A stretch of DNA of 46,037 nucleotides from Prochloraceae cyanobacterium (GTDB lineage Bacteria > Cyanobacteriota > Cyanobacteriia > Cyanobacteriales > JASJDA01): NCBI GenBank assembly GCA_030065755.1, contig JASJDA010000055.1, forward strand, positions 1-46,037, read 5' to 3'. This document shows, piece after piece, positions 12,035 through 36,152 of the stretch. The notes beneath the pieces were generated by a model, which saw only the letters and a program-made list of their open reading frames with translations, had not been told where the DNA came from and did not search any database. Made by a program: the position numbers and the translations under genes. The number at the start of each line of letters is the position of its first letter. Positions within the stretch are counted from its first letter, which is position 1.

Positions 12035-12409
12035 ATGCCAGAAAACCAAGTTCGGGTAACTATTACTCTGTCAGATCCCGAATTAAAGGAAGAAGAATTA
12101 CTTAAAGCCGTCAAAAATTTACAGTCAGAAGCCGATAATATTCAAGGAGTTGAAGCTGACTTAATCTCGATCGCAGAAGCACCACCAGGGTCTAAAAGTT
12201 TGGGGACTTTCCTAATCGATACATTTAAAGCAGTAGTAAATATCAAAAAGCTTCCGAATTTGCTCAAAACGCTCTCTCATCGCCTCATTGGAGGGCAAAA
12301 GATTAAAATCAAAGCCGAAGGGAATAACAGAAAACTAGACATCGAAGTCGGTAGCCCCGAAGACGTAGCCAAGATAATGCCAGAAATCGACAAGTTTATC
12401 AACGGCTAG
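12035..12409 (+). CDS. EACC1-like small protein (effector-associated constant component)
   Basis: A 124-residue cytosolic protein resembling EACC1, a domain described as a constant partner of variable effector genes in predicted NTP-dependent conflict systems. The features I rely on are a beta strand/helix start (VRVTITLSDPELKEEELL), a central PPGSKS turn (related proteins have a P-x-G-A-K-S-like motif), an amphipathic helix, and two C-terminal strands followed by a helix (IKIKAEGNNRKLDIEVGSPE...). It has no signal peptide or catalytic motif. It ends 10 bp before the caspase-like gene, whose Shine-Dalgarno AGGAG overlaps its stop, so the two are almost certainly co-expressed. Its biochemical role is unknown; a regulator or adaptor of the protease is inferred. 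Confidence 0.65.
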   Translation: MPENQVRVTITLSDPELKEEELLKAVKNLQSEADNIQGVEADLISIAEAPPGSKSLGTFLIDTFKAVVNIKKLPNLLKTLSHRLIGGQKIKIKAEGNNRKLDIEVGSPEDVAKIMPEIDKFING

Positions 12410-12419
12410 GAGTGGGCTA

Positions 12420-14744
12420 GTGGTTAAGATAGGCTTGTTAGTTGGAGTTAGCGAATATCGATCGGGGTTTGAGCCTCTTGCTAGTCCAGTCAAGGATGTT
12501 GAGAAAATGCAAGAGGTATTGCTAAACCTAGAAATAGGCGGATTTAGTGACGTGAAACTATTAGAAAATCCGACTCGACAGCAAATGGAAGAAGCTATTT
12601 TCGATCTATTTGCCGATCGCCAACCTGACGATCTGGTGCTATTCTACTTCTCAGGTCATGGAATCAAAGATCGCGATCTTAACTTCTATCTCGCCACTTC
12701 AGACACTCGTAAGAACAAAAATAGGATTCTCGTAACACCTACTGCTGTTGCTGCAAGTTTTTTGCAAACTCAAATGACCAAAAGTCGATCGCAGCGAGAG
12801 ATAATTATTCTAGATTGTTGCTTCAGTGGTTCTTTTGCTAAAGGATTAAAAGTAAAAGGAGAAGTAGATAGTATCGAAGCACAGTTGGGAGGTAAAGGAA
12901 GGGCTATTTTCACTTCTTCAAGTTCCGCTGAGGTATCTTTTGAGCAAGAAGATAAAGATCTCTCTATTTATACTCGCTATTTAGTCGAAGGTATCGAAAC
13001 TGGTGCAGCTGACATTAATAGAGATGGCTTCATTGATGCGGATGAATTGCATCAATATGTTTCCTCAAAAGTTCGAGAAACTTCTCCTGACATGACTCCA
13101 CAATTTTATCCAGTACAGGAAGGTTTTAAAATTTATTTGGCACGATCGCCTTTTAATGTTCTCAAGCTAGAATACCGCAAGGAAGTCGATGGCGTGGTTA
13201 TTCAAGATAAAGGAAAAATCGATTATCTCAACCGTATTTACTTGGACGAATTAAGGACAAAACTTGGTTTATCTGATGATGAAGCAAAAGCGATCGAGAC
13301 TGAAGCGATCGAACTTTATCCCAAGCGTCAGAAAAAGTTGCAGCGTTATCGAGAAGCTTTTTCTAAAGCAATTCAGCAGCGTTATCCTCTTAGAGAGGAC
13401 GATCGAAACAAACTAAAGCGCATACAGAAAATTTTAGAACTCACAGATGAGGATGTAGGTGCGATCGAAACAAAATTTACACCCGATCGAAATATTGCCG
13501 ATCGTTCTAAGGAAAACAAAGATAATTCACAAATTCCTAAATCTCAGACTCTACCCATACCAATAAAAAATAATACTTCTTCTTCCGAGCAAAAAGTTAA
13601 GTCGTCTCTTAAACCACCCCCAGTATCATCTAAATATCGAACTGAAAAAATTGAACCGCAGAGACAACTGTCTAATGGTAGTGCTTCTGAAGTTGAATCG
13701 ATTCAAGAACAAGACAAATCCCCTTTAAAGCTTTTAACGCGGGGAAATTTCCTAAAACTAGCACTATTAACTTTTAGTGGGACGACTTTAGCTATTGTAG
13801 GTAAGAACTTATTCTCTCCTCCACTTGAGAAAAGGGTAGATCCTCCACCTCAGAAGTTTAAAGAAGGGAATTTAAAGGATTTTGAGTTTCCAGTAGTAAC
13901 TGTAGACGCAAAAGGTCAAGAAGTTAAGCGAGAACAAGGGAAAGCTCAGTATTTTACTCTTAGTCTAGGCAATGATGAGATCGCTCTAGATATGGTTTCT
14001 CTTCCTGGGGGTAAATTTATGATGGGAACCGAAGATGAGGAAATAGAAAGGCTAGTTAAAAAATTTAACTGGGATTGGTTTAGAAGCGAAAAACCACGAC
14101 ATTATGTTACTGTTGAGCCTTTCTTTATGAGTAAATTTCCAGTAACTCAAGAACAATGGAGACAAGTTGCTAAACTTCCTAAAATCGATCGCGATCTTGA
14201 ACAAAATTCATCTAATTTCAAAGGCGATAATCGTCCAGTAGAACGGGTTTCCTGGTATGATGCGGATGAGTTTTGTAAGCGCTTGTCAAAAGAAACAGGA
14301 AAAGAATATAGACTACCCAGTGAAGCAGAGTGGGAATATGCTTGTCGTGCTGGAACTACTACTCCATTTCATTTTGGCGAAACTATTACCAGCGAGCTAG
14401 CCAATTATAACGGTAATTATACTTATGCGTCTGAGCCAAAAGGAGAATATCGACAACAAACTACTCCTGTAGGCAAGTTTCCGCCCAATGCCTTTGGTTT
14501 ATATGATATGCATGGCAATGTCTGGGAATGGTGTGCTGATTATTGGCATGAGAATTATCAAAATGCTCCAAATGATGGTAAGCCTTGGCTTTCAGACTCT
14601 AGTAGCATGAAAGTAATACGCGGTGGTTCTTGGTTCGTCAATCCTAATGGCTGCCGTTCTGCGTCTCGCAACGATCCTGCGCGCGTCAACCGCCACTTCA
14701 ATTTCGGTTTTCGTGTTATGCGTGTCGCGTCCAGGACTACATAA
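12420..14744 (+). CDS. Caspase-like protease fused to FGE/C-type-lectin domain, putative DGR target
   Basis: A 774-residue multidomain protein. Residues 1-240 are a caspase-like (peptidase C14) domain with the catalytic dyad His80 in YFSGHG and Cys134 in DCCFSG. Inside it, residues 198-209 form a canonical EF-hand loop (DINRDGFIDADE), suggesting calcium control. Residues 266-356 are a charged helical region with two related motifs (LSDDEAKAIE, LTDEDVGAIE). A Ser/Pro-rich linker and one predicted membrane segment (about 443-463) follow. Residues 520-767 are a formylglycine-generating-enzyme-like domain (LPGGKFMMG, PVTQEQW, RLPSEAEWEYACRAG, GNVWEWCAD, RGGSWFVNP, GFRVM). In cyanobacteria this fold often serves as the variable ligand-binding domain of DGR targets. 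The GTG start is set by AGGAG at 12408-12412. A membrane-tethered, ligand-triggered cell-death protease is inferred. Confidence 0.88.
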   Translation: MVKIGLLVGVSEYRSGFEPLASPVKDVEKMQEVLLNLEIGGFSDVKLLENPTRQQMEEAIFDLFADRQPDDLVLFYFSGHGIKDRDLNFYLATSDTRKNKNRILVTPTAVAASFLQTQMTKSRSQREIIILDCCFSGSFAKGLKVKGEVDSIEAQLGGKGRAIFTSSSSAEVSFEQEDKDLSIYTRYLVEGIETGAADINRDGFIDADELHQYVSSKVRETSPDMTPQFYPVQEGFKIYLARSPFNVLKLEYRKEVDGVVIQDKGKIDYLNRIYLDELRTKLGLSDDEAKAIETEAIELYPKRQKKLQRYREAFSKAIQQRYPLREDDRNKLKRIQKILELTDEDVGAIETKFTPDRNIADRSKENKDNSQIPKSQTLPIPIKNNTSSSEQKVKSSLKPPPVSSKYRTEKIEPQRQLSNGSASEVESIQEQDKSPLKLLTRGNFLKLALLTFSGTTLAIVGKNLFSPPLEKRVDPPPQKFKEGNLKDFEFPVVTVDAKGQEVKREQGKAQYFTLSLGNDEIALDMVSLPGGKFMMGTEDEEIERLVKKFNWDWFRSEKPRHYVTVEPFFMSKFPVTQEQWRQVAKLPKIDRDLEQNSSNFKGDNRPVERVSWYDADEFCKRLSKETGKEYRLPSEAEWEYACRAGTTTPFHFGETITSELANYNGNYTYASEPKGEYRQQTTPVGKFPPNAFGLYDMHGNVWEWCADYWHENYQNAPNDGKPWLSDSSSMKVIRGGSWFVNPNGCRSASRNDPARVNRHFNFGFRVMRVASRTT
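14622..14735 (+). other. Candidate DGR variable region (VR)
   Basis: The 3' end of the caspase/FGE gene encodes GGSWFVNPNGCRSASR..., ending GFRVMRVASRTT. This is the scaffold where DGR targets carry adenine-directed hypervariable codons. The codons at positions usually Asn in such templates (TTC, GTC, GGC, TCT, GAT, GTC, CAC, TTC) all end in a pyrimidine, as expected if AAC/AAT template codons were mutated at their adenines. The tail after GFRV is GC-rich, as homing-initiation sequences are. No template repeat or reverse transcriptase was found in this window. Confidence 0.55.
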
Positions 14745-14782
14745 CCCTTTACCCTCTTCCCCTTTTTCCCTTTGCCTTTTTT

Positions 14783-14796
14783 CCGCCGTCAGGCGG
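14783..14796. repeat. GC hairpin with 4-base loop downstream of the variable region
   Basis: CCGCC (14783-14787), loop GTCA, GGCGG (14792-14796), about 40 bp after the caspase/FGE stop. DGR targets can have a hairpin or cruciform shortly after the variable region that aids homing. It may equally be a weak terminator, but no T-run follows on the plus strand. Confidence 0.35.
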
Positions 14797-14876
14797 ATCG
14801 ATTTTCCAATAAAATATTAAGTTTTATTAATTGAATGAAAGAATTATCGATCGCCTTATGCCAATTTCCCTTGTGT

Positions 14877-14935
14877 TTGCTACAAATAATTTCGAGTGGG
14901 AGAGGGGGGGAGGGGGAAGAGGATATGTAGCAATC
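14877..14935. repeat. Polypurine element bounded by TTTGCTACA/TGTAGCAAT (copy 1)
   Basis: A purine-rich core (GGGAGAGGGGGGGAGGG type) is bounded by TTTGCTACA and TGTAGCAAT, a terminal inverted repeat. With its flank (AATTTCCC at 14863) it is the inverse of the element at 15393-15494. Together the two bracket a small membrane-protein gene. Confidence 0.7.
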
Positions 14936-14951: not shown

Positions 14952-15302
14952 TTACGATCCTCTGAAACGCAAAGTAAAGCGCGAAATTGCCGGTATTTTG
15001 CCCAAAGAGGGATAAATAATTGCTATAAAATTAATAATCAGACAAGTGGTTCCCAATCCGATTAAGATAACACTAACTGAAGTGAATATCCCAATCGTCC
15101 ACCAGGTGAGGATGTGAAGAAATAGAGTGAGAGCAAAAAGATTTGCGAATGCAGCCGCCAAACGAATTTGAGAGAAGGGACGCATCAAAAATACTAAAAC
15201 GATCGTATTTAAGGTGAATATCAGGTTAATTGGTACGAGGAAAGCGCAAATAGCTACGCAGTTTTGGCGGGAAAATTCGCAAATAAGATTTATATCTAGC
15301 AT
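14952..15302 (-). CDS. Small predicted membrane protein, unknown function
   Basis: From ATG 15302 a 116-residue protein reads MLDINLICEFSRQNCVAICAFLVP and continues with three or four hydrophobic helices (about residues 17-38, 45-65, 70-95), ending in a short basic tail (SRFTLRFRGS). Internal Cys and Asn residues in the first segment look conserved from memory of similar cyanobacterial proteins, but I cannot name the family. The frame is open upstream to 15479 only because it runs through a pyrimidine repeat; that extension is rejected. Inverted polypurine elements flank it on both sides. Confidence 0.6.
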   Translation of the reverse strand: MLDINLICEFSRQNCVAICAFLVPINLIFTLNTIVLVFLMRPFSQIRLAAAFANLFALTLFLHILTWWTIGIFTSVSVILIGLGTTCLIINFIAIIYPSLGKIPAISRFTLRFRGS

Positions 15303-15392
15303 TTTCAAATAAATTTTGTCAATCGTGGTTTGTAAAGCCGTCTTAACTATTATCACCCAAATGCAACAGATTAATAGCAAATTCCGCCCATT

Positions 15393-15494
15393 ATTGCTAC
15401 ATATCTTTCTCCCTTTCTCCCCCTCACCCTCTCCCCCTCTCTCCCCCTCACCCTCTCTCCCCCTCACCCCCTGTAGCAAACATAAAGGAAATTA
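15393..15494. repeat. Polypyrimidine element bounded by TTGCTACAT/CTGTAGCAAA (copy 2, inverted)
   Basis: The inverse of the 14863-14935 element: TTGCTACATAT, an expanded CCCTCACC/CCCTCTCC tract, then TGTAGCAAACATAAAGGAAATT. The outer parts (AATTTCC, TTTGCTACA, ATATGTAGCAAT) match copy 1 in reverse complement, while the internal tract differs in length. Confidence 0.7.
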
Positions 15495-27731: not shown

Positions 27732-30700
27732 ATGTTGCGGAAAGAAGCCACTTTCGTAGACCTATTAAAGAATAGAGCGCTAGATCTAGGAGATCGAATC
27801 GCTTTTACCTTTTTGTCAGACGGAGAAACTGAATCAAACAGCGTTACATATCAGGAATTAGATAAACTGGCACGAGCGATCGCAGTTAGGCTGCAGAACC
27901 TGAACGCTACAGGGGAAAGAGCATTACTACTTTATCAGCCAGGTCTGGAGTTTATTTCCGCTTTTATGGGCTGTTTGTATGCGGGGGTAATTGCGGTTCC
28001 TGCTTATCCACCAAGAGCCAATCGCTCTATATCTCGGTTGCAGGCAATTGTATCTGACGCGCAGGCTAAATTTGCTCTCACCACTACGTCCATCATTTCT
28101 AACATAGAGGGGCGCTTTACCACTACCGACGCTACAGAAAAAATACGCTACCTCACCACCGATAATATTAGCCCTGACTTAGCAACCCAATGGCAAGAAA
28201 TCGCGCTAGATGAAAATAGCCTCGCTTTTCTTCAGTACACTAGCGGCTCTACAGGTACGCCAAAAGGGGTAATGATTACTCACGGTAATCTGATGCAAAA
28301 TACCGCCTCGATCGAACAGTGTTTTCAGCACGGCTCTCACCAGAAATCGGTATCTTGGTTGCCCCCATATCACGATATGGGACTAATTGGCAACATACTG
28401 CAGCCGATCGAGCTGGGCTCTTCTGTAATTTTAATGCCTCCTGTGACCTTTCTCCAGCGCCCTTATCGCTGGCTCAAGGCAATTTCTACTTACCAGGCTA
28501 CCACTAGTGGGGGGCCTAATTTTGCCTACGACCTGTGCGTCAGTCAAATTAGCGAGCAACAAAAAGCAACCTTAGACCTCAGTAGTTGGGAATTAGCCTT
28601 TAGCGGTGCTGAACCCGTCCGCATCGAAACCATAGAACGTTTTAGTGCAGCTTTTGCATCAGTTGGCTTCCGCAAAGAAATATTTTATCCTTGTTACGGC
28701 ATGGCAGAAAGTACCCTGATAATTACAGGGGGAGACAAGAAAAGTGTGCCCGTACTGAAAAGTTTTAAAGGAAAAGCTATAGAAGAAAATAAAGTCGAGG
28801 TAGCTGAAAAATCGGACTCAGGAGTAATTACTCTAGTTGGGTGCGGAAAGTCAGTTGAAGGGCAAAAAATGGCGATCGCCAACCCCGATACTTTGACTAG
28901 CTGCGCTGAGGATGAAATAGGAGAAATTTGGGTATCTAGTAAAAGTGTCGCCAAAGGATATTGGCAACAAGAATCTAAGACAGAAGCTGCATTTAATGCC
29001 TATTTAGCAGATACTAAAGAAGGGCCTTTTTTGCGCACTGGAGATTTAGGGTTTTTGCGCGACGGGGAACTGTTTGTGACTGGTCGGCTCAAAGATTTAA
29101 TTATTATCCGAGGTCGCAATTATTATCCTCAAGATATCGAACTGATATCAGGAAAAAGCCATCCTGCAGCGCGATCGGGTTGGAGTGCTGCTTTTGCTGT
29201 CGATATAAATGAAGAAGAGCATCTGGTCATAGTACAAGAAGTGAAGCGCACTCATTTACGAAATCTAGATGCAGGTGAGGTTATTAGTTCTATTAAGAAG
29301 GCGATTATACGAGAAACAGAACTACAACCCTACGCAGTATTATTATTAAAAACTGGCAGTATACCTAAAACTTCTAGCGGCAAAATTCAGCGCCATGCCT
29401 GTAAGATAGGATTTCAAGAAAAAAGCCTCAATGTAGTCGGGGAATGGACGAGAGATCGGAGGTCAGAGGTCAGAGGTCAGAGGTCAGAGGTAACAGCCAA
29501 CAGCCAACAGCTAACAGCCAACAGCCAACAACAACTAATTTCTGATTGGTTGGTATCTAAAATTGCTACGGGTATAGGGATATCTGCAACGGAAATAGAT
29601 GTTGAAGAACCATTAGTTAATTATGGTTTAGATTCGGTAGCCGCAGTAAGACTGTCAGCAGAATTAGAAGACTGGTTGGGAAGAAAAATTTCTCCTACTA
29701 TTGTTTACGATTATCCCACTATTAAAAGTTTAGCCAGCTATTTACAAGGACGCGACGATCGCACCATTCCTAGAGAAAGTATCGATCGCCACTCCGAGAC
29801 ATCGACAGAAGAGATAGCTATTATTGGTATGGGCTGCCGTTTTCCAGGAGCAAACAACCCAGAAGAATTTTGGCGGTTGTTACGGGACGGGAAAGATGCT
29901 ATTACTCAGTCGCAAAGAAGCTATCTACAGGGACAATGGGGCGGTTTTATCGATCGCGTAGACCAATTCGACCCCCAATTTTTCGGCATTTCCCCGCGAG
30001 AAGCTGCGAAAATGGATCCTCAGCAGCGATTGTTGTTAGAGGTTAGTTGGGAAGCGTTAGAAAATGCCGCTATAGCGCCCGATCGCCTCTCAGGTACTAC
30101 GACAGGGGTATTTATTGGCATCAGCAGCAGTGACTATTCTCAACTTCAATTCCGCCACGGTACTAAAATCGACCCCTATTCTAGTACGGGTAACGCTCAC
30201 AGTATTGCTGCTAATCGTCTATCTTATATTTTAGACTTGCGAGGGCCTTCTCTCAGTGTAGATACGGCTTGCTCTTCTTCTTTAGTAGCAATACATCTCG
30301 CTTGCTCTAGTATTAAAAATGGAGAGTGCGATCGCGCCATAGTTGGGGGAGTCAATCTGATTTTATCCCCAGAATTAACTAAAAGTTTCTCACAAGCGGG
30401 CATGATGGCTGCTGACGGTCGCTGTAAAACTTTTGATGAAAGTGCGGACGGTTACGTTAGAGGAGAAGGCTGTGGCGTTGTTATCCTCAAACCCCTCGAT
30501 CGAGCTATTGAAGATGGAGATAATATCCTCGCTGTTATTCGAGGTTCCGCAGTCAATCAAGACGGTCGCAGTAACGGACTTACCGCACCTAATGGAGTAG
30601 CACAACAAGCAGCTATCCGTCAAGCATTAAAAAATGCCCAGACAACAGCAGCAGAAATTAACTACTTAGAAGCACACGGCACGGGTACTTCTTTAGGAGA

Positions 30701-33700
30701 CCCCATAGAGATTAATTCCCTTAAAACAGTAATAGCACAGGAGCGAGGGACTAAAAATCCTTGTTGGATTGGTTCTGTGAAAACCAATATCGGTCATTTA
30801 GAAGCTGCTGCTGGTATTGCTGGTTTAATAAAGATTGTTCTTTCTTTGCAGCATCAAGAAATTCCCCCTCACCTGCATTTGCAACAGCTCAATCCTCATA
30901 TTGATATTGATAACACCCCTATATCTATTCCTACCGCGATTGAACCCTGGACAAGCAGCGATCGACCTCGCATCGCTGGGGTAAGTTCCTTCGGCTTTGG
31001 CGGCACTAATGCCCACGTTATTGTAGGAGATGTGTTAGAAAAGTCGCAAACTGTTTCTCCGTCTGTCGCACCGCGCAGCGGATCTCTTCGAGATCGCCCT
31101 CTACACCTTCTCACTCTTTCAGCCAAGACTGAAACAGCTCTACAAGAATTAGTAAAGAATTACGAAAAATACTTGACAAGCGATCGGGAAGTGTCGATAG
31201 AAGATATATGCTTCACGGCAAATGGAGGACGATTGCACTTTAAGCATCGACTGGCAATAATAGCATCATCTACGGCCGAGTTACGAGAAAAATTAGCTGT
31301 AAATAGGGAAGAACAAACAAACTACGGGATAGTAAAGAAAGGAGAAAACTCTACTAGCAAGAAAATAGCCTTCTTGTTTACAGGTCAGGGTTCTCAATAT
31401 GTGGGTATGGGGTATCAATTGTATCAGACTGCCCCTATTTTCCGCGCAGCCCTCGATCGATGTGCGGAAATTCTAGATAGCTATTTAGATAAACCCCTAC
31501 TAGAAATACTGTATCCAGATTTAGTGCATTCTCAAGGAACATCTGGACTAAAAAATCAGAAATTAGATAAAACCGCCTACACCCAACCAGCTTTATTTGC
31601 CTTAGAATACGCCTTAGCTCAGTTGTGGCAATCCTGGGGAATAAAACCAGACGTAGTAATGGGACACAGTGTAGGGGAGTACGTAGCTGCGACTATTGCT
31701 GGAGTATTTAGCCTAGAAGACGGTTTGAAGCTAATCGCCGAAAGAGCCAGGCTCATGCAACAATTGCCTCAAAACGGCGAAATGGTAGCAGTATTTGCTA
31801 GTGAAAGCCAAGTTAAAAAAGCGATCGGCGACTTGAAAGATAAAGTAGCGATCGCAGCCATAAATGGGTCGGAAAGTATTGTAATTTCTGGAGCAAAAGA
31901 AGCAATAGAACCAGTAGTTGCTACTCTCGAAAGCCGAAAAACAAAAAAATTAAATGTTTCCCACGCATTTCACTCTCCTTTGATGGAGCCAATGTTAGAA
32001 GCTTTTGAAAAAGTAGCGCGAGAAATAAACTATTCACATCCAAGTATAGATATTATTTCTAACGTTACTGGAAAAATATCTACTGAAGAAATAGGCACCG
32101 CAAAATATTGGGTAAATCACGTAAGAGAAGCAGTTAGATTTGCTCCAAGCATGGAACTATTGCGCGATCGAGGCAATAGAATCTTTCTAGAAATAGGGCC
32201 AAAACCCATCTTGTTAAATATGGGTCGCAATTGCTTGGAAAAAACAGAAGCATTATGGCTTCCCAGTTTAATTCCAGGAAAAGAAGATTGGCAGCAAATT
32301 CTAAATAGTTTAGCTTCACTATATTTGCGCGGAGTAAAAATAGACTGGTTTGGTTTTGACAAAGAATACGATCGAAATAGATTGTCACTGCCGACCTATC
32401 CTTTCCAACGTCAGCGATATTGGATTGAAGAAAAACAATTAAATGAAGAAGTTTCTATTATCTCTAACTGGGAAAATTGGCTCTATCAAATAGAATGGCA
32501 AGCAAAATCAACTCAGGAATTGACTAGACCCGCATCTTCATCGAGTAAGAATTGGTGTATCTTTGCAGATAGATCGGGATTAGGAGAAAAGATAGCCAAA
32601 CAACTAGAAGCAAGAGGCGATCGAGTTTTATTAATTTACAGTCAAGAAAGTGGAAAACAAACAAGCGAAAACACGGCCATAATTAACGCCAGTACCTCTG
32701 AAGATCTAGAGAGACTATTTGAGGAAAACTACTCAAATGGAACGAGTTTAAACGGAATAATTCACCTGTGGAGTTTAGAAGCAAAAAAAACAGATGAATT
32801 AACTATTTCATCCCTAGAAGAATCTCAGATTCTAGGTTGTGGTAGCGTATTGAATCTGATTCAAACTCTAGTAAAAAAATCAATTCCAGCTCCGATTTGG
32901 TTAGTAACAAGAGGAAGTCAGCCCGTCACCTTACAAGAAAAAAGTATATCTGTAGCTCAAACTCCTTTGTGGGGAATGGGTAGAGTCATTGCTGTAGAAA
33001 ACCCTCAATTGTGGGGAGGAATGATAGATTTATCACCTCATTTAGAAACAAGTGAAGCAGAAGCGATCGTAGGAGAAATAACCAATTCAGAAGCAGAAGA
33101 CCATCTCGCATTTCGCCAAGGAATTCGTTATGTCGCTCGACTCAAAAAGTCAGAAAATATAACCGATCGATCTATTTCTCGATCGCCAAATATCAATTCA
33201 GAGTCTACTTACGCGATCGCTGGCGGTTTAGGAGCATTAGGACTAAATATAGCCAAATGGATGGCAAAACAAGGCGCGAGATACCTAGTTTTATTAAGTC
33301 GTAGGGGAATTTCAGACAACAATATCCACACAATAAGAGAATTAGAACAAACTGGAGCCAAAATTTTAGTACTTAAAGCAGATATCTCCAACGAGGGAGA
33401 AATACTGAGAGTACTAGAAACAATTAAACATGCTATGCCACCACTGCGAGGCATAATTCAAGCTGCGGGAATTCTCGACGACGGTATATTACAGGGACAG
33501 AATTGGGAACGATTTACTAAAGTAATGGCTCCCAAAGTGCAAGGGACTTGGAATTTGCACAATTTGACGCGAGATTTGCCCTTAGATTTCTTCGTCACCT
33601 TCTCCTCCGTCGCCTCATTATTAGGTTCTCCAGGTCAAGGAAACTATGCCGCAGCAAACGCCTTTATGGACGCGATCGCCCACCTGCGAGCCAATAGAGG

Positions 33701-36152
33701 ACTGCCAGCACTCAGCATTAACTGGGGTCCGTGGTCTGAAATTGGCATGGCAGCAAATAAAAAATTAGGCGCGATAGGGCTAAATTTAATCGAAAAAGAG
33801 CAAGGATTAGAAGCCTTCTCTAAATTGCTGTCCCAATCGCGCCCTCAAGTGGGTTTCGTTTCAATTGAATGGGATGTAGTTGCCAAGCAATTTGCTCGCG
33901 CAGCTCGATCGCCCTATTTCCAAGAAGTAATTGGCGAAGCAGCTATTCCCTCACGACAAGTAGAAACTTTGCCAACTACAAAAATGCACCAGCAATTGGT
34001 GGAAATGGCAGCCAAAGAGCGAGAAGAATTTTTAAACACCTATTTACGAACGGTTATTGCGGGGATACTCCACATAAAAGCCGAGGATATTTCACCTAGC
34101 TCTAATTTACTGGATAAGGGAGTAGACTCGATCGCAGTGATGGAAGCCATCGATCGGATCTCCCAAGACCTGCAATTGATGTTATACCCCAGGGAATTCT
34201 ACGATCGTCCCAGAATAGAGAGTCTGGCAAAATATCTCGCAGCAGAATTTAATAAAAATATAGAGACTTTCAATGGAACGTCTTCACACCAGGTCGCACA
34301 AGCCCAAAATATCTTAAGTATTCCCATTTCCACATCTTCGAGGGTTCAGAGTGAAGAAAAACTACCAGGTATAGTTTTTATACTCTCAAGTCCGCGATCG
34401 GGTTCTACCTTGCTCAGAGTAATGCTAGCAGGACACCAAGCCTTATCTGCACCCCCAGAGTTGCACCTATTACCCTTTGAGACAATGGGTCAAAGACAAG
34501 AGCAACTAGGTAAAAGTTACTTAGGAGAGGGACTAGCGAGAGCTTTGATGGAATTACAAAACATTGAAGCTGAAAACAGCCAACAATTAGTTAGTGATTG
34601 GGTCAAAGAAAATCTACCCGTACACAAAGTATATGGCAAACTAATCGAACTAGCAGGCGATCGACTGTTAGTAGATAAATCTCCTACCTACGGCTTTCAT
34701 AAAGAAACCCTAAAAAGAGCAGAAGAATTATTTGAGAATGCCAAATACATTCATTTAGTCCGCCATCCCTATGCAGTAGTTGAATCATTTGCTCGCATGC
34801 GTATGGACAAACTACTAGGGATAGAAAAAGGTACTCCTCATCAGATAGCAGAATCAATTTGGACTCGCACCAATCAAAATATTCTTGACTTTCTTGCCAA
34901 AATCAATCCCGATCGCCACTGTCAAATAAGCTATGAAGACTTAGTTACTCAGCCACAGGTAGAGATGCAACAGTTGTGCGAGTTTCTCGATATTCCTTTT
35001 GACTCCTCTGTTTTAAAACCCTATGAAGGCGATCGCATGACTGACGGGGTCAGTAATAAATCGATGTCTCTAGGAGATCCGAATTTTCTCAAACACCAGC
35101 AGATCGACCCCAAATTAGCACTAACCTGGAAGAAAATTCAACTACCTCATCAACTAGAAGAACCCGCTCGTCAAGTAGCTTGTTCGCTCAATTACCAATT
35201 ACCCAATGAAGATATTAGCGATCGAACCCCATCTAATACTACAGAAGGCGTGCCGCTTCGCGGATCTCTGCGCGATCGAGAAGAAGCCACTTCACCCCTC
35301 AAATACATGGTCGAGCATTTCTTAGACGTGCGCGGCTTAAAATTATGCCTTTGTGTCTGGGGACCTCCCTCAGCACCCTTAGTATTGTGTCTCCACGGCA
35401 TTCTCGAACAAGGTGCAGCGTGGTCAGAAGTAGCCGTGCGTCTAGTAGAAAAAGGCTATCGCGTAGTGGCTCCCGACCTGCGAGGACACGGAAGATCCGA
35501 TCGCGCAGGTCAAGAATCTTCTTATAATTTAATTGACTTGTTGGGGGATATTGATGCCATAGTTGAAAAGCTCACCGATAAAGGCTTTACCTTAGTCGGA
35601 CATTCTTTAGGGTCAGTAGTTGCTGGCATCTTCGCCAGTATTCGCCCTCATAAGGTAAAAAATTTAGTCTTAGTAGAAACAATACTCCCATCAGAAATTG
35701 ACGATGACGACGAAGCTGCACGACAGTTAGCAACCCATCTTGATTATCTAGCTTCTCCTCCCGAACACCCTATATTCCCCGACATATTAGCTGCTGCTGA
35801 GCGTCTGCGTCGAGCAACTCCCGCTTTATCGATGTCACTAGCAATTAAACTAGCAGCGCGCATTACCGAACCCTGTGCAGGAGGCTTGCGTTGGCGTTGG
35901 GCATCTTTACTCCGTACTAGTGCTGGTATTGCTTTTAGCGGTATTGGCAAATCGAGATATCTCGGTTTATTGCGGCGAATTAAAGCTCCTATAACCTTGA
36001 TTTATGGCGATCGAAGTAATTTTAATCGAGAAGACGACCTCACCCAACAGCAAGCAGCAATGCCTAAAGCAGAGCGAGTTATCCTCTCTGGAGGACACAA
36101 TCTTCATTTAGAAGCAGCTTCCAAACTAGCTCAAGTAATTGGTAATAGTTAA
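27732..36152 (+). CDS. ols: Olefin synthase (Ols), modular type I polyketide synthase for 1-alkenes
   Basis: A single 2806-residue megasynthase. Domains in order: fatty acyl-AMP ligase (1-575; TSGSTGTPKGVMITH, TSSGKIQRH); ACP1 (about 603-675, Ser635 in GLDSV); ketosynthase (693-1115; Cys847 in DTACSSS, His982 in EAHGTGT, NIGHLEAA); acyltransferase (1210-1500; Ser1313 in GHSVGE; HAFH implies malonyl-CoA); ketoreductase (about 1580-2060; GGLGALGL, SSVASLLGSPGQGNYAAANAF); ACP2 (Ser2133 in GVDSI); PAPS sulfotransferase (2210-2490; SSPRSGSTLLR); thioesterase (2520-2806; Ser2625 in GHSLGS, terminal GGHNLH). This is exactly the Synechococcus PCC 7002 olefin synthase architecture: a fatty acid is activated, extended by malonyl-CoA, reduced, then sulfated and decarboxylated to a terminal alkene. 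All catalytic residues I checked are intact. Linkers contain repeat-derived insertions. Confidence 0.96.
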   Translation: MLRKEATFVDLLKNRALDLGDRIAFTFLSDGETESNSVTYQELDKLARAIAVRLQNLNATGERALLLYQPGLEFISAFMGCLYAGVIAVPAYPPRANRSISRLQAIVSDAQAKFALTTTSIISNIEGRFTTTDATEKIRYLTTDNISPDLATQWQEIALDENSLAFLQYTSGSTGTPKGVMITHGNLMQNTASIEQCFQHGSHQKSVSWLPPYHDMGLIGNILQPIELGSSVILMPPVTFLQRPYRWLKAISTYQATTSGGPNFAYDLCVSQISEQQKATLDLSSWELAFSGAEPVRIETIERFSAAFASVGFRKEIFYPCYGMAESTLIITGGDKKSVPVLKSFKGKAIEENKVEVAEKSDSGVITLVGCGKSVEGQKMAIANPDTLTSCAEDEIGEIWVSSKSVAKGYWQQESKTEAAFNAYLADTKEGPFLRTGDLGFLRDGELFVTGRLKDLIIIRGRNYYPQDIELISGKSHPAARSGWSAAFAVDINEEEHLVIVQEVKRTHLRNLDAGEVISSIKKAIIRETELQPYAVLLLKTGSIPKTSSGKIQRHACKIGFQEKSLNVVGEWTRDRRSEVRGQRSEVTANSQQLTANSQQQLISDWLVSKIATGIGISATEIDVEEPLVNYGLDSVAAVRLSAELEDWLGRKISPTIVYDYPTIKSLASYLQGRDDRTIPRESIDRHSETSTEEIAIIGMGCRFPGANNPEEFWRLLRDGKDAITQSQRSYLQGQWGGFIDRVDQFDPQFFGISPREAAKMDPQQRLLLEVSWEALENAAIAPDRLSGTTTGVFIGISSSDYSQLQFRHGTKIDPYSSTGNAHSIAANRLSYILDLRGPSLSVDTACSSSLVAIHLACSSIKNGECDRAIVGGVNLILSPELTKSFSQAGMMAADGRCKTFDESADGYVRGEGCGVVILKPLDRAIEDGDNILAVIRGSAVNQDGRSNGLTAPNGVAQQAAIRQALKNAQTTAAEINYLEAHGTGTSLGDPIEINSLKTVIAQERGTKNPCWIGSVKTNIGHLEAAAGIAGLIKIVLSLQHQEIPPHLHLQQLNPHIDIDNTPISIPTAIEPWTSSDRPRIAGVSSFGFGGTNAHVIVGDVLEKSQTVSPSVAPRSGSLRDRPLHLLTLSAKTETALQELVKNYEKYLTSDREVSIEDICFTANGGRLHFKHRLAIIASSTAELREKLAVNREEQTNYGIVKKGENSTSKKIAFLFTGQGSQYVGMGYQLYQTAPIFRAALDRCAEILDSYLDKPLLEILYPDLVHSQGTSGLKNQKLDKTAYTQPALFALEYALAQLWQSWGIKPDVVMGHSVGEYVAATIAGVFSLEDGLKLIAERARLMQQLPQNGEMVAVFASESQVKKAIGDLKDKVAIAAINGSESIVISGAKEAIEPVVATLESRKTKKLNVSHAFHSPLMEPMLEAFEKVAREINYSHPSIDIISNVTGKISTEEIGTAKYWVNHVREAVRFAPSMELLRDRGNRIFLEIGPKPILLNMGRNCLEKTEALWLPSLIPGKEDWQQILNSLASLYLRGVKIDWFGFDKEYDRNRLSLPTYPFQRQRYWIEEKQLNEEVSIISNWENWLYQIEWQAKSTQELTRPASSSSKNWCIFADRSGLGEKIAKQLEARGDRVLLIYSQESGKQTSENTAIINASTSEDLERLFEENYSNGTSLNGIIHLWSLEAKKTDELTISSLEESQILGCGSVLNLIQTLVKKSIPAPIWLVTRGSQPVTLQEKSISVAQTPLWGMGRVIAVENPQLWGGMIDLSPHLETSEAEAIVGEITNSEAEDHLAFRQGIRYVARLKKSENITDRSISRSPNINSESTYAIAGGLGALGLNIAKWMAKQGARYLVLLSRRGISDNNIHTIRELEQTGAKILVLKADISNEGEILRVLETIKHAMPPLRGIIQAAGILDDGILQGQNWERFTKVMAPKVQGTWNLHNLTRDLPLDFFVTFSSVASLLGSPGQGNYAAANAFMDAIAHLRANRGLPALSINWGPWSEIGMAANKKLGAIGLNLIEKEQGLEAFSKLLSQSRPQVGFVSIEWDVVAKQFARAARSPYFQEVIGEAAIPSRQVETLPTTKMHQQLVEMAAKEREEFLNTYLRTVIAGILHIKAEDISPSSNLLDKGVDSIAVMEAIDRISQDLQLMLYPREFYDRPRIESLAKYLAAEFNKNIETFNGTSSHQVAQAQNILSIPISTSSRVQSEEKLPGIVFILSSPRSGSTLLRVMLAGHQALSAPPELHLLPFETMGQRQEQLGKSYLGEGLARALMELQNIEAENSQQLVSDWVKENLPVHKVYGKLIELAGDRLLVDKSPTYGFHKETLKRAEELFENAKYIHLVRHPYAVVESFARMRMDKLLGIEKGTPHQIAESIWTRTNQNILDFLAKINPDRHCQISYEDLVTQPQVEMQQLCEFLDIPFDSSVLKPYEGDRMTDGVSNKSMSLGDPNFLKHQQIDPKLALTWKKIQLPHQLEEPARQVACSLNYQLPNEDISDRTPSNTTEGVPLRGSLRDREEATSPLKYMVEHFLDVRGLKLCLCVWGPPSAPLVLCLHGILEQGAAWSEVAVRLVEKGYRVVAPDLRGHGRSDRAGQESSYNLIDLLGDIDAIVEKLTDKGFTLVGHSLGSVVAGIFASIRPHKVKNLVLVETILPSEIDDDDEAARQLATHLDYLASPPEHPIFPDILAAAERLRRATPALSMSLAIKLAARITEPCAGGLRWRWASLLRTSAGIAFSGIGKSRYLGLLRRIKAPITLIYGDRSNFNREDDLTQQQAAMPKAERVILSGGHNLHLEAASKLAQVIGNS
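29454..29535 (+). repeat. In-frame heptad repeats in the FAAL-ACP linker of olefin synthase
   Basis: Tandem GGTCAGA units (five, 29459-29493) run into CAGCCAA/CAGCTAA units (to about 29530). They are translated as EVRGQRSEVTANSQQLTANS. The same composite occurs outside genes at 37890-37972. Total length must keep frame across the linker. Confidence 0.85.
31061..31105 (+). repeat. In-frame GC-rich repeat insertion, KS-AT linker
   Basis: A segment around CCGCGCAGCGGATCTCTTCG is translated APRSGSLRDRP. It is related in sequence and translation to the ST-TE linker insert at 35246-35283 (VPLRGSLRDRE). It lies between the ketosynthase and acyltransferase, where length variation is tolerated. Confidence 0.6.
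35246..35283 (+). repeat. In-frame GC-rich repeat insertion, ST-TE linker
   Basis: GTGCCGCTTCGCGGATCTCT followed by GCGCGATCG, translated VPLRGSLRDRE. It shares the GSLRDR core with the KS-AT linker insert. It lies between the sulfotransferase and thioesterase domains. Confidence 0.6.

Follow-up and report, generated by a model that had tools for sequence, protein, structure and literature searches.

The last ~115 bp of a caspase gene in a Prochloraceae cyanobacterium are strongly supported, by comparison with paralogs and relatives, as a variable region (VR) of a diversity-generating retroelement (DGR). The VR very probably lies on a dispersed, or remote, target of a cyanobacterial-type DGR. 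Because the DGR machine was not found in the draft genome, the gene may be either such a dispersed target or a relic of one. It is encoded in the window, the whole stretch of 46,037 nucleotides that was analyzed, whose DNA is contig C398 of a 455-contig draft assembly (8.46 Mb, 96.6% complete). The features on which the argument turns first are as follows.

12420..14744, plus strand: caspase–linker–FGE/C-type-lectin fusion of 774 aa with a GTG start (Pfam PF00656 and PF03781; NCBIfam NF047832)
13989..14723, plus strand: FGE-type C-type-lectin-fold domain (PF03781), with sequence relatives of solved structure
14622..14738, plus strand: DGR VR, differing from close paralogs mainly at adenine columns and built on the scaffold of templates found beside DGR reverse transcriptases
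14727..14738, plus strand: GCGTCCAGGACT, an IMH-like boundary at which VR homology ends on the 3′ side; targets of relatives read AGGACT or something close to it here, and their templates differ

A caspase fused to a lectin-fold domain

Pfam places a Peptidase_C14 domain (PF00656) at residues 4–230 of the 774-aa protein and an FGE-sulfatase domain (PF03781, 202.5 bits) at residues 524–768. The caspase domain scores 159.5 bits against the NCBIfam model NF047832, "caspase, EACC1-associated type" (cut-off, 140), which assigns it to the EACC1-associated subfamily. Sequence relatives of the lectin domain with solved structures include PvdO, FGEs, and Treponema denticola variable protein 1 (2y3c), a DGR variable protein that the domain matches with an E value of 2.1e-20. 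Judged from these matches, the VR occupies the 3′-terminal part of a C-type-lectin-fold domain, the placement seen in DGR targets. An AlphaFold model of the lectin domain was discarded as evidence (mean pLDDT of 56.8, most of the VR below 50, 8-row alignment). Among the 20 named matches to the full protein, 10 were cyanobacterial, including the best nine. Elsewhere in the window, positions 27732–36152 encode a 2,806-aa protein with AMP-binding, ketosynthase, acyltransferase, ketoreductase, sulfotransferase, and hydrolase domains, the layout of a cyanobacterial olefin synthase (terminal alkene biosynthesis).

Templates in relatives share the scaffold of the variable region

Positions 14622–14741 encode GGSWFVNPNGCRSASRNDPARVNRHFNFGFRVMRVASRTT, the last part of the ORF. 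The same 32-codon scaffold recurs in relatives, in templates that neighbor DGR reverse transcriptases and that have Asn at the majority of the variable positions. These templates were retrieved with a template-like query inferred from the VRs of the assembly and searched against genomes of the phylum, with two candidates scored per genome. The query matched 37 of 386 genomes, our own included, at E ≤ 1e-10. Loci were fetched from 13 of the 36 other matching genomes (L135–L147), mostly the best matches, with G094 passed over. All 13 carry an Asn-rich template of the GGSWNNNPENCRSANRNNNN...GFRV type, and 12 encode a reverse transcriptase with an IGNLTSQ or MGNLTSQ motif beside it; avd is present in the same 12. 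Nine gap-free cis pairs from eight of these loci differ between template and target at 107 positions, 105 of them adenine in the template, and the pairs served as a positive control for the column classes used below. The count leaves out further targets in L139, L140, L142, and L144 and the L135 pair, which a 3-nt indel puts out of register (17/39 mismatches at adenine). Shortly after the template, all 13 loci also contain a conserved structured RNA of ~100 nt (e.g., L139:5657-5764), for which RNAalifold predicts 26 pairs, in 14 of which both partners change in one or more sequences. An Rfam scan of four of the 13 template loci returned nothing at this RNA and only a tRNA elsewhere in L145.

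Read against the same-length L135 template, which belongs to a relative and is not the VR's own, the window VR mismatches at 20 of 31 adenines versus 11 of 65 other bases (p = 5.8e-6). The sequence-only reading had pointed to a set of window codons at typical Asn positions, all ending in C or T. This holds for 12 of the 13 codons at AAC/AAT positions of the L135 template, an excess over the 52% of 734 codons that end in C or T before the VR (binomial p = 0.0025). The one exception, GCG at codon 20, had been omitted from that set, and its second GTC, at codon 22, faces Asp rather than Asn in every one of the nine templates of the same length.

The homology ends in a short boundary sequence. In the 14 target genes of relatives that were read, the boundary is AGGACT (or AGGATT/CGGACT); templates have forms such as AGTACTCTT or AGCGCTCTT at the same place. 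AGGACT is common to five paralogs in our assembly. The GC-rich tail that the sequence-only reading likened to a homing-initiation sequence corresponds to GCGTCCAGGACT, which fits the boundary of the relatives' DGR targets.

A family of paralogs varies at adenine columns

At least 15 genes in the genome end in the same VR scaffold: the window gene and those on C152, C155, C229, C455, C282, C168, C309, C34 (two genes), C141, C415, C356, C301, and C253. Pfam finds an FGE-type domain in 15 of 15. The domains fused to it differ: a caspase domain (window, C282, and C253), caspase plus nSTAND1 (C455), TIR (C152 and C229), and kinase (C309, both C34 genes, and C356). The cut ORF on C301 retains a sub-cut-off kinase piece, and on C141, C415, C155, and the short C168 no domain other than FGE exceeds its Pfam cut-off. 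The C455 gene (L055:2070-5249) encodes a 1,059-aa fusion of caspase, nSTAND1 NTPase, and lectin-VR. The closest paralog, C152 (L029:90-1928), joins a TIR domain to the lectin, and its TIR part scores 204 bits against the Thoeris ThsB model; by these matches it would be a DGR-type sensor on a Thoeris-like effector. C155 (L056:4421-7087) encodes a lectin-VR protein of 889 aa; no Pfam family matches its first ~640 residues, and its VR closely resembles the window and C152 VRs.

Column classes were taken from nine same-length templates of relatives: 24 columns are adenine in at least eight of the nine, 58 are never adenine, and 14 are mixed. The window and C152 differ at 16 of the 24 adenine columns, one of the 58 never-adenine columns, and three of the 14 mixed columns (Fisher p = 2.7e-10 for adenine against never-adenine). 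By codon position, their differences number 12/7/1 in the VR versus 7/3/14 in the preceding 300 bp (p = 2.7e-4). Ordinary synonymous-biased divergence, the outcome that would have spoken against the sequence-only reading, is thus contradicted by this comparison. The window VR and those of C152, C155, C229, and C455 are of one type; across these five, 22 of 24 adenine columns vary, as do 11 of 58 never-adenine columns, nine of the 11 being third positions. In distant paralog pairs, never-adenine drift reaches 14 of 58. When 14 of the assembly's VRs (all but that of C155) were compared with templates in equal-length pairs only, the second C34 VR had little adenine enrichment against several templates (p = 0.2–0.3).

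Signals downstream of the gene

The sequence-only reading had ended the feature at 14735. A VR is indeed located there, and the feature continues further 3′, to about 14853, through three elements.

14745..14781, plus strand: C/T-rich tract beginning right after the stop codon (first 45 nt 91% pyrimidine)
14782..14797, no strand assigned: hairpin TCCGCC-GTCA-GGCGGA, a candidate DGR target cruciform or a terminator; motif TCCGCCNNNNGGCGGATCGAT
14835..14853, plus strand: truncated avd start (MKELSI), ATGAAAGAATTATCGATCG; 19 bp, a DGR cassette remnant in a flank shared with C282

A pyrimidine content of at least 0.75 in the first 45 nt after the gene is found for eight of 14 target genes in our assembly, against one of 86 control ORFs, and for 12 of 12 target genes of relatives, against three of 81. 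The controls are mechanically listed ORFs of at least 150 aa, not annotated genes; C301, whose ORF touches the end of its stretch, was left out, and 12 of the relatives' 14 target genes were taken. We found no description of such a tract as part of a target signal in the literature searched, and this role is possibly unreported. Low-complexity AG-rich and CT-rich tracts also flank the ORF at 14952–15479, at about 14895–14922 and 15405–15475.

The hairpin motif TCCGCCNNNNGGCGGATCGAT occurs six times in the 8.46-Mb genome, and its reversed-pattern control does not occur. Each of these copies sits immediately 3′ of a VR gene and on that gene's strand (window, C152, C282, C253, one C34 kinase gene, and C141). 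It is absent from nine of the 15 VR genes, and either the motif or the tract is missing from seven to nine of them. The phage DGR hairpin rule, as given in passages of PMC3240598, specifies a 7–10 bp stem and a GRNA loop; with its 6-bp stem and GTCA loop, the window hairpin falls outside it. Since several relatives have a T-run after the hairpin, it may instead be a terminator.

The third element connects the gene to a DGR cassette. Positions 14744–14853 are 91.8% identical to the C282 flank that leads into avd, and the C282 avd frame is 59–79% identical to avd of relatives over 56 residues. Avd-start remnants similar to that of the window occur on C253 and after one C34 gene. From the remnant and the C282-like flank, we infer that the window gene derives from, or was once part of, a DGR cassette. 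Together with the paralog comparison and the relatives' templates, these 3′ signals uphold the proposal that the gene ends in a DGR VR scaffold.

Missing machinery and competing explanations

The sequence-only reading had looked to a near-identical genomic template next to a DGR reverse transcriptase. Genome-wide searches of the draft assembly yielded neither, a result that, taken literally, is the outcome set out beforehand as refuting it; the absence is qualified by a break in the assembly near or inside the avd gene just 3′ of the sibling target on C282. For the reverse transcriptase, the best match in the assembly to a BPP-1 Brt query scored 32.1 bits, and the best to a 12-sequence profile, at 47.5 bits, was an RYADD enzyme. 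The Brt query reached at least 100 bits in 11 of the 60 genomes searched, our own being among the 60. Reverse transcriptases abound in the genome, most of them group II intron-like in motif. Among its 27 RVT_1 matches, nearly all motifs read were RYADD or RYADE, resembling group II introns, and none came close to the DGR type in either search. The C250 enzyme (L030:4086-5507) was set aside as retron-like by motif, C279 for its RYMDD motif and the absence of a template hit from that contig, and a 46-aa fragment on C51 for its resemblance to the group II type.

None of the assembly's 21 matches to the template-like query is a template repeat: 13 are ends of FGE-domain ORFs and eight are chance matches of 15–22 bases (E ≥ 3). 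A model of the template-linked RNA, which recovers 13 of 13 relatives' loci with L137 held out of model building, found no copy in the assembly among the 150 of 1,659 first-look candidates that were scored. The sole avd is the piece near the end of C282, where matching stops after about 56–63 codons; past it, ~100 bp up to the contig end (L062:1-100) are unmatched, as if by an insertion or misjoin.

One account of these absences, a sub-case of the dispersed-target reading, is that the DGR was lost or broken in this lineage, leaving the 15 VRs behind to evolve in the ordinary way. We consider this close to an even prospect. The lack of a DGR reverse transcriptase, template, and template-linked RNA and the truncation of avd speak for it, as does the one same-genus genome searched (G001, 90% complete), which has neither a VR-scaffold DNA match nor a DGR reverse transcriptase. 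The VRs of C301, C356, and C168 also look drifted. Against a relic, the window and C152 VRs differ at one of 58 never-adenine columns versus 14 of 100 third positions upstream; therefore, homing was not ancient relative to the duplication. In addition, seven of the 15 VR genes have a contig end <900 bp away on their 3′ side (p = 2.8e-6, with the limit set after seeing the data), so the missing pieces may be assembly gaps, although we do not count this enrichment as decisive. The C155 contig breaks inside sequence shared with loci around other reverse transcriptases, and C152 inside the target 3′ repeat itself. Both missing components, reverse transcriptase and template, could lie beyond contig ends or on an unbinned replicon, or they could be lost. 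The protein that had been called a hypermutable receptor does carry a supported DGR VR; it may or may not be hypermutable at present.

Two further explanations were weighed. Without any retroelement, ordinary diversifying selection could act on the ligand-binding patch of a growing paralog family; binding residues of such lectin domains can diverge quickly, and the missing reverse transcriptase would suit this view. We judge it very improbable: the changes cluster on columns that are adenine in independent templates, the closest pair has almost no third-position changes, and the changes come with DGR-linked 3′ signals and remnants of avd. That the domain is a working formylglycine-generating or related oxidase rather than a sensor, as its Pfam match and most of its PDB matches (FGE-type enzymes) might suggest, is hardly credible, given that the first Cys of GGSYMCHRSYC in the alignment to 8aru_A, a solved FGE, is Val in the window and falls in a variable column, so that the domain does not retain both active-site cysteines (the two Cys of this motif, the first included, presumably being catalytic in FGE), and that the paralogs vary at this patch.

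A candidate EACC1-like gene upstream

The caspase of this DGR target is of the EACC1-associated type, and a small gene precedes it.

12035..12409, plus strand: 124-aa gene, EACC1-like candidate, adjoining the caspase gene on its 5′ side (35% identity to an ORF on C82)

The GTG start of the caspase gene falls 10 bp past the end of this gene. The 124-aa product has no family match in Pfam, NCBIfam, or PADLOC, and none to the EACC1 model PF19953. Its 35% identity to the C82 ORF extends across 109 residues, and that 127-aa ORF scores 22.2 bits against PF19953, just under the cut-off of 23.6. On C82 (L194:3-1836), the EACC1-like ORF stands ahead of a second caspase gene with a similar start. Since the upstream gene lacks a family match of its own and is linked only through the sub-cut-off C82 ORF, its EACC1 identity is indirect, and we regard it as a candidate by sequence similarity.

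Proposed mechanism

The source of the window gene would have been a cassette of target, avd, reverse transcriptase, and template, copies of whose target domain and 3′ signals would have become joined to various effectors. Working in trans, a DGR reverse transcriptase would copy the template RNA, misreading adenines, and the cDNA would take the place of the VR from the upstream homology as far as the GCGTCCAGGACT boundary. Going by the domains, the randomized lectin face may serve as a sensor whose binding triggers the caspase executioner, and firing of the caspase would probably mean cell suicide in a conflict (anti-phage) setting.

More tentatively, and leaning somewhat toward doubt, we propose a portable "address": the lectin domain, VR, C/T-rich tract, hairpin, and avd start would duplicate as one block and be fused to EACC1-caspase, TIR, kinase, and other death effectors, each copy being addressable in trans by one shared DGR that keeps the suicide sensors diverse. 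The C/T-rich tract would then belong to the signal that marks a target.

One scaffold is shared here by at least 15 targets with several effector types, and six of them have a 3′ hairpin motif that occurs nowhere else in the assembly; this makes testable the question of what makes a remote gene a DGR target. The case is also a warning that DGR targets can form an obvious family even where the assembly yields no DGR reverse transcriptase.

Comparison with known systems

Mtd of phage BPP-1 is a DGR variable protein with a C-type-lectin fold, and TvpA is a surface protein. TvpA (2y3c), likewise a DGR variable protein of this fold, is a sequence relative of the window lectin. Unlike TvpA and unlike Mtd, a phage tail protein, the protein described here is fused to a caspase.

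Cyanobacteria offer parallels as well. DGR targets with orthocaspase, kinase, and TIR N-termini, as well as dispersed remote targets, are on record in passages of PMC7517822, so the kind of target is already known. Nostoc punctiforme, a laboratory cyanobacterium, has an intact DGR, with adenine-specific variation reported in PMC12691664. DGR clade 5E of PMC10907252 resembles our family in its C-terminal CLec domain with the VR at the 3′ end, in N-termini of the orthocaspase, kinase, and TIR types, and in paralogs dispersed at a distance from the reverse transcriptase. In contrast to clade 5E, our assembly yielded neither reverse transcriptase nor template, the caspase is EACC1-associated, and the hairpin and avd-start remnant travel with the target. 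The Thiohalocapsa PB-PSB1 loci treated in the same source resemble the present case in their several targets, degenerate loci without a reverse transcriptase, and some trans-diversified members; PB-PSB1 differs in having intact loci in its assembly and sampled populations. There, degenerate loci lacking the reverse transcriptase coexist with intact variants in one population (PMC10907252).

On function, passages in PMC8195603 and PMC10907252 propose FGE/FGS domains as invader sensors, and the latter describes DGR-diversified sensors joined to suicide enzymes as proposed analogs of adaptive immunity in multicellular bacteria, with experimental proof pending. The gene order recalls System 4 of PMC7159879, where EACC1-caspases carry up to 50 types of C-terminal domain: a small 5′ gene precedes a caspase whose C-terminal domain can be swapped. 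The passages on System 4 describe it as prevalent in actinobacteria and sporadic in proteobacteria; they name these two groups and do not mention FGE/FGS C-termini, and the upstream gene here differs from System 4 in matching no EACC1 model itself. An EACC1-type caspase as host of a cyanobacterial DGR target did not appear in the literature searched, as far as the sources extend, and is possibly unreported. The EACC1-type caspase host and the portable 3′ module thus add detail to a published kind of DGR target.
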